DNA from: Rhodoferax sp.
Lineage (GTDB): Bacteria; Pseudomonadota; Gammaproteobacteria; Burkholderiales; Burkholderiaceae_C
Assembly (NCBI RefSeq): GCF_028715765.1
Contig: NZ_JAQURE010000001.1
Span: 62,001-126,000 of the forward strand
Length of the DNA stretch: 64,000 nt
Direction: 5' to 3'
Below are positions 56,904-58,680 of this stretch, in pieces. The notes below the pieces were generated by a model, which made no database searches, was not told the origin of the DNA, and saw nothing but the letters and a program-made list of their open reading frames with translations. The translations under genes and the position numbers were made by a program. How positions within the stretch are numbered: position 1 is the stretch's first letter; each line of letters begins with the position of its first letter.

Positions 56904-56995
56904 GCGCACAGCGGCAGCACGCTGCACAAGGCGGGTGTGATTCAAACTGATGTGGAGTTATTCTCGCCCCATCCATGCAGCAAAGGAGCCCAGAC

Positions 56996-57397
56996 ATGAC
57001 TGAACCATTGATGAGTGATGCGGAATTGGTAAGAAGACTGGGCGCCCATCCTGATTTGCGAAGTCGAATGGAATCCTTGCTGCTGGCGGTCGAAGACGAG
57101 ACAGGAGAACTCCAGACGGCCGATGCAGCGGAAATGCGAGTCATTGAGGTCATACGACGCACTGGGCACGATGCACTGCAAGCTTGGGCCAAACACCAAG
57201 TAGAAAAGACTTCCCAAAAGTCCAAACAAACCGCTGGCGTATGGCGCGAGGGTAAAAAAAACTCTGCTGGCACACCACCTTTGGCGACATCAGCGTTGAC
57301 GAACCCCAATACCGTGACGGCACCAAAAGAATCCGTCCGTTTGCGCAAAGCGCCCAAGTCAGCAACCGCGGCTGCTCACGCCCGCTACAGCGCGTAG
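56996..57397 (+). CDS. Transposase, upstream frame (N-terminal part)
   Basis: 133 aa if read straight. Start at ATG 56996 with AAAGGAG 7 nt upstream. MTEPLMSDAELVRRLGAHPD and a coiled N-terminal region resemble ISKra4-type N-termini. After codon 89 (AAC of the slippery site) the zero frame turns into an unconserved Pro/Thr/Ala-rich tail to a TAG at 57395. The true continuation lies in the -1 frame. Confidence 0.75.
   Translation: MTEPLMSDAELVRRLGAHPDLRSRMESLLLAVEDETGELQTADAAEMRVIEVIRRTGHDALQAWAKHQVEKTSQKSKQTAGVWREGKKNSAGTPPLATSALTNPNTVTAPKESVRLRKAPKSATAAAHARYSA
57256..57262 (+). other. Programmed -1 frameshift site A-AAA-AAC in the transposase
   Basis: The run of eight A (57254-57261) plus C gives the heptamer A AAA AAC in register with the upstream frame. 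Slipping one base back enters the frame 57256-58344, which has conserved transposase sequence from the slip point on (WHTTFGDISVDEPQYRD). The -1 frame is closed just upstream by TAA at 57253, as expected for a designed switch point. Confidence 0.7.
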
Positions 57398-58344
57398 TGA
57401 CAGACTTTGGTGCTGACCAACCCTTTGCCCAAGCGATGGACAAAATCGTCGAACACTACGGCATTGTGGTCAGTGAAAGCACCATCGCCCGCATCACCGA
57501 GGGCCATGCCAAGGCGATCTTTGAGAGCGCCCCACCAGCGCAGGGCTGGCCAACGAGGGCGGGCACCAGCAGCCCCATCATTGTCGAAACTGACGCTGGC
57601 ATGGTGCCCATCATGGAACCCAACGCCAACAGTGCAGACAAACGCAAAGGCAAAAATCTGCACTGGGAAGAGGCAAAAATATGTCTTGCACACCCACAGG
57701 GCAGCAAGACGCTGGCATTTGGCGGCACGCTCCAGGGTGATGTTGACAGAGCTGGACAATGCCTTTTCGATTGTGCAGTGCAAGCCGGATTTGGCCTAGG
57801 TACGCCCATTCATGGGGTGGGTGATGGCGCACCCTGGATAGCCGATCAGGTGGAGAAAAAATTTGGTGCGCAAGGCAGTTACCTGGTCGATTTCTTCCAT
57901 GCGTGCGACTACCTCAGTGCCGCTTGTAAAGGCATCCATAAGGCAGAGCTGGAACAGCAAATCTGGATGAACGACCAAACAGCCCTACTTAAAACGAATC
58001 AGGCAGGCAAAGTATTGCAAGAGCTGCAATCGCATCTTGAATCACCACAGCTCAACGACAGCGAAGCCCCGGTAAGACAGTGCCACCGCTATCTCAACAA
58101 CAGACTCGAGCAACTCAATTACAGGGATGCCATCAAGCGCGAATTACCAATTGGTTCAGGAGAAATTGAGAGCGCCCACCGCTATATTGTTCAGCAACGC
58201 ATGAAACGCCCAGGCGCTTGGTGGCGAGTGCACAACGCCGAACATATGCTGGCCTTGCGGCTCAATCGGGCAAACCATCAGTGGCACAGCTATTGGCAAA
58301 AAATTTCAAGCAGCGTAGATGATCAAATCACTACATCAGTTTGA
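57256..58344 (+). CDS. Transposase, downstream frame (catalytic part, ISKra4-like)
   Basis: About 360 aa read only after a -1 frameshift from the upstream frame; the fused product would be about 449 aa. Catalytic acidic positions are plausible at SPIIVETDAGMVP, HGVGDGAPWIADQV and LPIGSGEIESAHRY (D-D-E). Other features are YLVDFFHACDYLSAAC and a C-terminal KRPGAWWRVHNAEHML. A GTG at 57397 could also start a shorter product. No internal stop codons are present, so the element may still be active. Confidence 0.75.
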   Translation, partial: KKLCWHTTFGDISVDEPQYRDGTKRIRPFAQSAQVSNRGCSRPLQRVVTDFGADQPFAQAMDKIVEHYGIVVSESTIARITEGHAKAIFESAPPAQGWPTRAGTSSPIIVETDAGMVPIMEPNANSADKRKGKNLHWEEAKICLAHPQGSKTLAFGGTLQGDVDRAGQCLFDCAVQAGFGLGTPIHGVGDGAPWIADQVEKKFGAQGSYLVDFFHACDYLSAACKGIHKAELEQQIWMNDQTALLKTNQAGKVLQELQSHLESPQLNDSEAPVRQCHRYLNNRLEQLNYRDAIKRELPIGSGEIESAHRYIVQQRMKRPGAWWRVHNAEHMLALRLNRANHQWHSYWQKISSSVDDQITTSV

Positions 58345-58368
58345 ATCGCACCCGCACAAGGATGTGTA

Positions 58369-58398
58369 TTGCCAGTTTTTATAGACAAAAGGTATAAT
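58369..58398 (+). promoter_or_regulatory. Sigma70 promoter upstream of rpoD
   Basis: TTGCCA (58369-58374), 18 bp spacer, TATAAT (58393-58398). It lies 14 bp outside the right end of the insertion sequence and about 280 bp before the rpoD start. Perfect -10 and good -35; likely drives rpoD. Confidence 0.6.
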
Positions 58399-58680
58399 CC
58401 GCGTTTTTCGTCTCAGACAAGAGCGACAGCAGCACCTCCGGGCTCGTGCCAACCGATGACCACTCCACATCTGGCCAACCTACCGCAAGGACTGCACTCC
58501 AAATGTTCGCCCATCCATCTTGTCAGACAAGGTATCCCCAAGTTTTCTCTTGGCCCCCGCCCAACACTGATTTAATTTGATTGACAACGCTGAAGGTTTT
58601 TGCGTTGCTTCAAAAAATTGAGCGTTTGACGGTGTCTGAGTGTGCGTTTGATTGTTGTTTCCCTGTTTGAAGGTATCACC
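58399..58680 (+). other. Untranslated leader upstream of rpoD
   Basis: No gene is supported here. It contains a small perfect palindrome CTTGTC-A-GACAAG at 58519-58531 and GAAGG as SD 8 nt before the rpoD ATG. A primase gene (dnaG), commonly upstream of rpoD, is absent. Confidence 0.4.

Follow-up and report, generated by a model that had tools for sequence, protein, structure and literature searches.

The 64-kb window (the whole stretch of Rhodoferax sp. DNA analysed here, 64,000 nucleotides) contains an insertion sequence (IS) of the ISKra4 family whose transposase is divided between two reading frames, ORF1 and ORF2, and we consider it likely that a -1 ribosomal frameshift at the heptamer A_AAA_AAC yields the joined ORF1-ORF2 transposase. 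Judged from comparison of sequences, the frame break in the window is probably a programmed -1 frameshift, ribosomal and IS1-like. Since nearly every relative free of other damage retains this split, it probably represents a working control switch rather than decay, and a transposase annotated in two pieces in this manner should not be labelled a pseudogene.

Anatomy of the Element

The element is a complete IS of 1,421 bp (56933..58353, plus strand), delimited by its inverted repeats and target duplication and identified by a match to the NCBIfam ISKra4 transposase model NF033572. The terminal inverted repeats are 21 bp each, the left one reading GGGTGTGATTCAAACTGATGT (56933..56953, plus strand) and the right one (58333..58353) reading GGGTGCGATTCAAACTGATGT on the minus strand. 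They are flanked by a target-site duplication, the left copy of which, GCACAAGGC (56924..56932), is identical to the right copy, GCACAAGGA (58354..58362), at 8 of 9 positions; in the relatives L006, L008, L009, L018 and L033 the 9-bp duplication is perfect (9/9). ORF2 alone matches NF033572 with an E-value of 1.7e-61 and 208.6 bits, above the cut-off of 205, and this score, together with the inverted repeats and a target duplication of 8-9 bp, identifies an intact-looking ISKra4-family (p-MULT 4, Mutator-like DDE) insertion sequence.

ORF1, the N-terminal part of the transposase (133 aa, 56996..57397, plus strand), starts at the ATG at 56996, just before which lies AAAGGAG (the mechanically delimited open frame starts at 56975), and runs to a stop codon at 57395-57397, contributing about 89 residues before the shift point. 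ORF2, the catalytic part, occupies the -1 frame for 360 codons (57262..58344, plus strand). The match of ORF2 to the model begins at residue 2, which aligns to profile position 74 of 422, so that another source, ORF1, must supply the N-terminal part; moreover, the homology of ORF1 in relatives extends to the same point, where the frame changes. Three acidic residues of ORF2, D111 (TDAGMVP), D188 (GDGAPW) and E301 (SGE), are invariant in 8/8 aligned copies and, to judge from these motifs, likely constitute the DDE triad. The predicted structure of ORF1 is helical with a long C-terminal helix, at moderate confidence (AlphaFold 70.8), and the model of ORF2 is poor (mean pLDDT 51). The published domain order and this low-confidence model would place the repeat-binding helices in ORF2, not in ORF1.

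The Slip Site and Its Conservation

The slip site, AAAAAAAAC, is an A8C run at 57254..57262 on the plus strand. The bases 57250-57262 read GGGTAAAAAAAAC and the frame of ORF1 is GGT AAA AAA AAC, so that the heptamer A_AAA_AAC at 57256-57262 is in register with the frame-0 codons AAA AAA AAC. This is the sole A8 run on both strands of the window, where about 4 are expected from dinucleotide shuffles. Directly 5' of the site, the -1 frame is shut by a TAA at 57253..57255 (plus strand), in a position common to 8 of the 10 tabulated copies, and it is open thereafter. The original prediction, made from the letters and their open reading frames, thus holds in its anatomical part: the conserved transposase sequence moves out of frame 0 into frame -1 at an in-register heptamer within an A8 run, the -1 frame is closed just upstream, and both frames are otherwise open, ORF1 to its stop codon and ORF2 to 58344, between intact ends. 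In 8 of the 10 tabulated copies a frame-0 stop follows 9-11 codons past the site; in the window copy and L005 this early stop has been lost and ORF1 continues for 44 codons (57263-57397).

Relatives were collected on the resemblance of their proteins to ORF2, whether or not an A-run was present. Eleven distinct copies (the window copy and ten relatives) require the same -1 shift and carry AAA AAA AAC or AAA AAA AAG in the same phase, which supports the earlier proposal that the break is programmed and not decayed. These copies range from 98% DNA identity to about 41% protein identity and come from Pseudomonadota and one Verrucomicrobiota plasmid. An in-phase A8C is present in the window copy, its 98% DNA-identical sister L005 (which contains N's, is cut by a contig end and is not claimed as a proven intact copy), L006 (with L033 showing the same site sequence), L007, L008, L009, L018, L020 (and L028) and L055. 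The most divergent copy, L057, on an Opitutaceae plasmid (about 41% identity), has A8G, i.e., A_AAA_AAG. Wherever the target duplication of an IS copy could be recognised (L001, L006/L033, L008, L009 and L018), the site is an in-phase A8C.

Copies with a run of A7 or A9 and one uninterrupted frame would have contradicted the original prediction, and the relatives were checked for them. The A9 copy, L034, reads GGA AAA AAA AAC; it keeps the phase because GGA absorbs the extra A, and it is not fused (it has one TGA in the matched stretch of the search table and is likewise not claimed as a proven intact copy). The frame is not continuous in any of the three A7 copies, L010, L017 and L019, and each of these shows other damage: a nonsense codon within ORF1 in L010 and L017, an ORF1 frameshift in L019, together with an ORF2 stop in its genome search row, and absence of the target duplication from L017 and L019. 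The sole continuous copy, L054, has A6 and a fused open frame of 451 codons, which counts against a programmed frameshift; its left inverted repeat was sought and not found. Much of the comparison set is metagenome-assembled, so that some of its run lengths could be wrong.

Every tabulated frameshift copy uses AAA for both lysine codons of the site, for which the codon usage of the elements themselves gives P of about 7e-6 when the copies are treated as independent and shared ancestry is ignored. Lys-Lys is missing at this position from the aligned single-ORF homologues, which suggests that the fold of the protein does not require the pair. In the tree of the catalytic part, the frameshift elements and L054 form one branch with support 100/99, and hence one origin is enough.

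Mechanism of the Frameshift

Under the ribosomal reading, most ribosomes would translate ORF1 alone, giving a short, largely helical N-terminal protein that might itself regulate transposition, and a minority would move back by one base at A_AAA_AAC (57256-57262) and read on into ORF2. We infer that the resulting fusion, of roughly 450 residues, would be the active transposase and that infrequent slipping would restrain transposition in the manner of IS1, which illustrates low-efficiency frameshift control (PMC4066793). A_AAA_AAC has been proven to act as a frameshift motif in IS elements, and no stimulator is established for it; in E. coli it is weak, and this counts against the ribosomal reading (PMC4066793).

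Programmed -1 ribosomal frameshifting is commonly, although not obligatorily, assisted by a downstream structure or an upstream Shine-Dalgarno (SD)-like stimulator, and both had been suggested for this site. Of the two hallmarks, the conserved in-frame heptamer is present, and no stimulator was found. The suggested pseudoknot did not materialize: no stimulatory RNA structure was found downstream of or around the slip site (fold z-scores -0.6 to 1.3), no conserved downstream structure emerged (consensus energy -1.7 kcal/mol), and an Rfam search at the site gave no match. This, too, we count against the ribosomal reading. Nor was a conserved, well-spaced SD found: a GAGGG no more than 3 nt away from the run was rejected as a candidate, since L008, L009, L020 and L034 lack it and its spacing is tighter than that of known -1 stimulators.

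A different machine could produce the same outcome. RNA polymerase, by adding one A or dropping two on the A8 run, could generate mRNAs in which ORF1 and ORF2 are continuous, so that no ribosomal slip would be needed; we hold such programmed transcriptional slippage to be unlikely as the explanation, while regarding it as a tentative alternative worth weighing. All in-phase copies have A8 or A9, although the heptamer needs only A6, and the protein sequence does not explain the extra A's, given the single-ORF homologues that lack Lys-Lys. Furthermore, the base 3' of the run varies (G in L057), and the failure to find a ribosomal stimulator points the same way. Slippage on eight A's has been inferred by Baranov et al. 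for some IS elements, but the usual threshold is nine (PMC1088944). The phase of the ribosomal heptamer is exact even at A9 in L034, which speaks against slippage, although a tendency to preserve the frame would be expected of any site that needs this net shift. The IS elements of Deinococcus and Nostoc with A8/A9 slippage share with the present ones a conserved A-run at the ORF junction; slippage was inferred there, whereas here it is a candidate (PMC1088944). The relatives provide about a dozen diverged natural slip sites, along with damaged A7 and A6 variants, on which the question of ribosome versus RNA polymerase can be addressed.

That the frame break is instead a homopolymer indel or an assembly error in a dead copy appears very improbable. 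The window copy has one mismatch in its target duplication, its frame-0 tail of 44 codons is longer than in most relatives and it is the single full copy in its genome, all of which would suit decay; the comparative evidence contradicts it, as the same break in the same phase recurs in eleven distinct copies, the 98% identical L005 shares the A8 run, and ORF2 is free of stops, with its conserved acidic residues and both ends of the element intact. Independent translation of ORF2 from the GTG at 57397 or a similar start, with no need for a fusion, can be practically dismissed: although an Opitutaceae relative is annotated as two separate ORFs, strong protein conservation begins at the slip point, well upstream of that GTG, the more distant homologues are single proteins, and the conserved A-run and its phase would be left unexplained.

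Known Systems and Promoter-Proximal Insertion

The IS1 frameshift heptamer is A_AAA_AAC. The present site resembles that of IS1 (InsA-InsB') in this low-efficiency -1 motif; the IS1 transposase, in contrast, is unrelated to that of the ISKra4 family, and the apparent placement of the probable repeat-binding helices in ORF2 of the window element is a further difference. Closer at hand, Guerillot et al. (2014) described ISMich2-group transposases encoded in two ORFs, with a -1 frameshift restoring the full-length protein, and took its conservation as a likely sign of programmed frameshifting (PMC3942029); the frameshift in the window is therefore already known in kind. The window element shares with this group a two-ORF ISKra4-family transposase, a conserved -1 shift and the organisation of a simple IS, and its 9-bp target duplication falls within the reported 8 or 9 (PMC3942029).

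The less expected result, a by-product of the analysis, concerns the sites of insertion. Immediately outside the right end of the IS and upstream of rpoD lies a host sigma-70-like promoter, TTGCCA-18-TATAAT (58369..58398, plus strand), in which the -35 begins 15 nt outside the right end and the -10 begins at outward base 40. Conservation of TATAATCC in further species of the genus makes it probable that this is a genuine promoter element of the host. Of 66 junctions at the ends of IS copies and short elements, 13 carry the motif TANNNT at outward base 40, against a background elsewhere of 0.74% (the binomial P is about 3e-15, the position having been picked after looking and some of the junctions not being independent). 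Each of the five IS insertions flanked by a duplication has a -10-like TANNNT at base 40 on one side. The fixed-distance -10 box was seen at 58354-58398 and at junctions of L003, L004, L006, L008, L009, L012, L013 and L018; it occurs on either side of the element.

According to the 2014 survey, promoter targeting on both sides, together with near-perfect repeats, is found within the family only in the ISKra4 group (PMC3942029). The present elements share with that group near-perfect inverted repeats and, on one side or the other, a sigma-70 promoter downstream of the insertion point; the -35 is about 15 bp from the end in the window copy, and about 15-17 bp is the distance given for the ISKra4 group. 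They differ in having two ORFs in place of the single-ORF transposase of the ISKra4 group, the -1 frameshift being described for the ISMich2 group and not for the ISKra4 group (PMC3942029). Conversely, the survey reports no promoter-directed insertion for the ISMich2 group, whereas the present elements show both traits, a comparison made by description only. The named plasmid relatives examined were single-ORF or decayed-looking, with a subgroup named for none. Whether one ISKra4-family lineage combines a programmed -1 frameshift with fixed-distance insertion upstream of sigma-70 promoters, traits that the 2014 survey splits between subgroups, is in our estimate evenly balanced. If it does, the reach of promoter targeting, or of frameshifting, would extend beyond what the published grouping suggests. 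The promoter-proximal insertions also link a DDE transposase to transcription-initiation sites in elements where this was unexpected.

Downstream of the element, about 147 nt at 58387-58533, from just before TATAAT and upstream of rpoD, are about 75-91% conserved across the genus. This stretch is not obviously coding and matched no Rfam family; it could be an rpoD leader or a small RNA.

Distribution and Short Elements

Besides its one full copy, the Rhodoferax genome contains inverted-repeat fragments and short elements only, and a search of viral contigs and phages gave no match to the element. Three short elements of this genome, L002, L003 and L004 (contigs C21, C24 and C31), carry the same inverted repeats as the IS and are probably MITEs mobilised by the same IS family. 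L003 and L004 are 87 bp each, and L002 has one recognised end only; the two copies of the target duplication of L003 match at 8 of 9 positions, and in all three elements one side shows TANNNT at outward base 40. The Comamonadaceae MAG PCUV01 (L005, L011-L015) has multiple copies of a nearly identical IS: several of its contigs terminate within the IS, which suggests recent transposition of the element.
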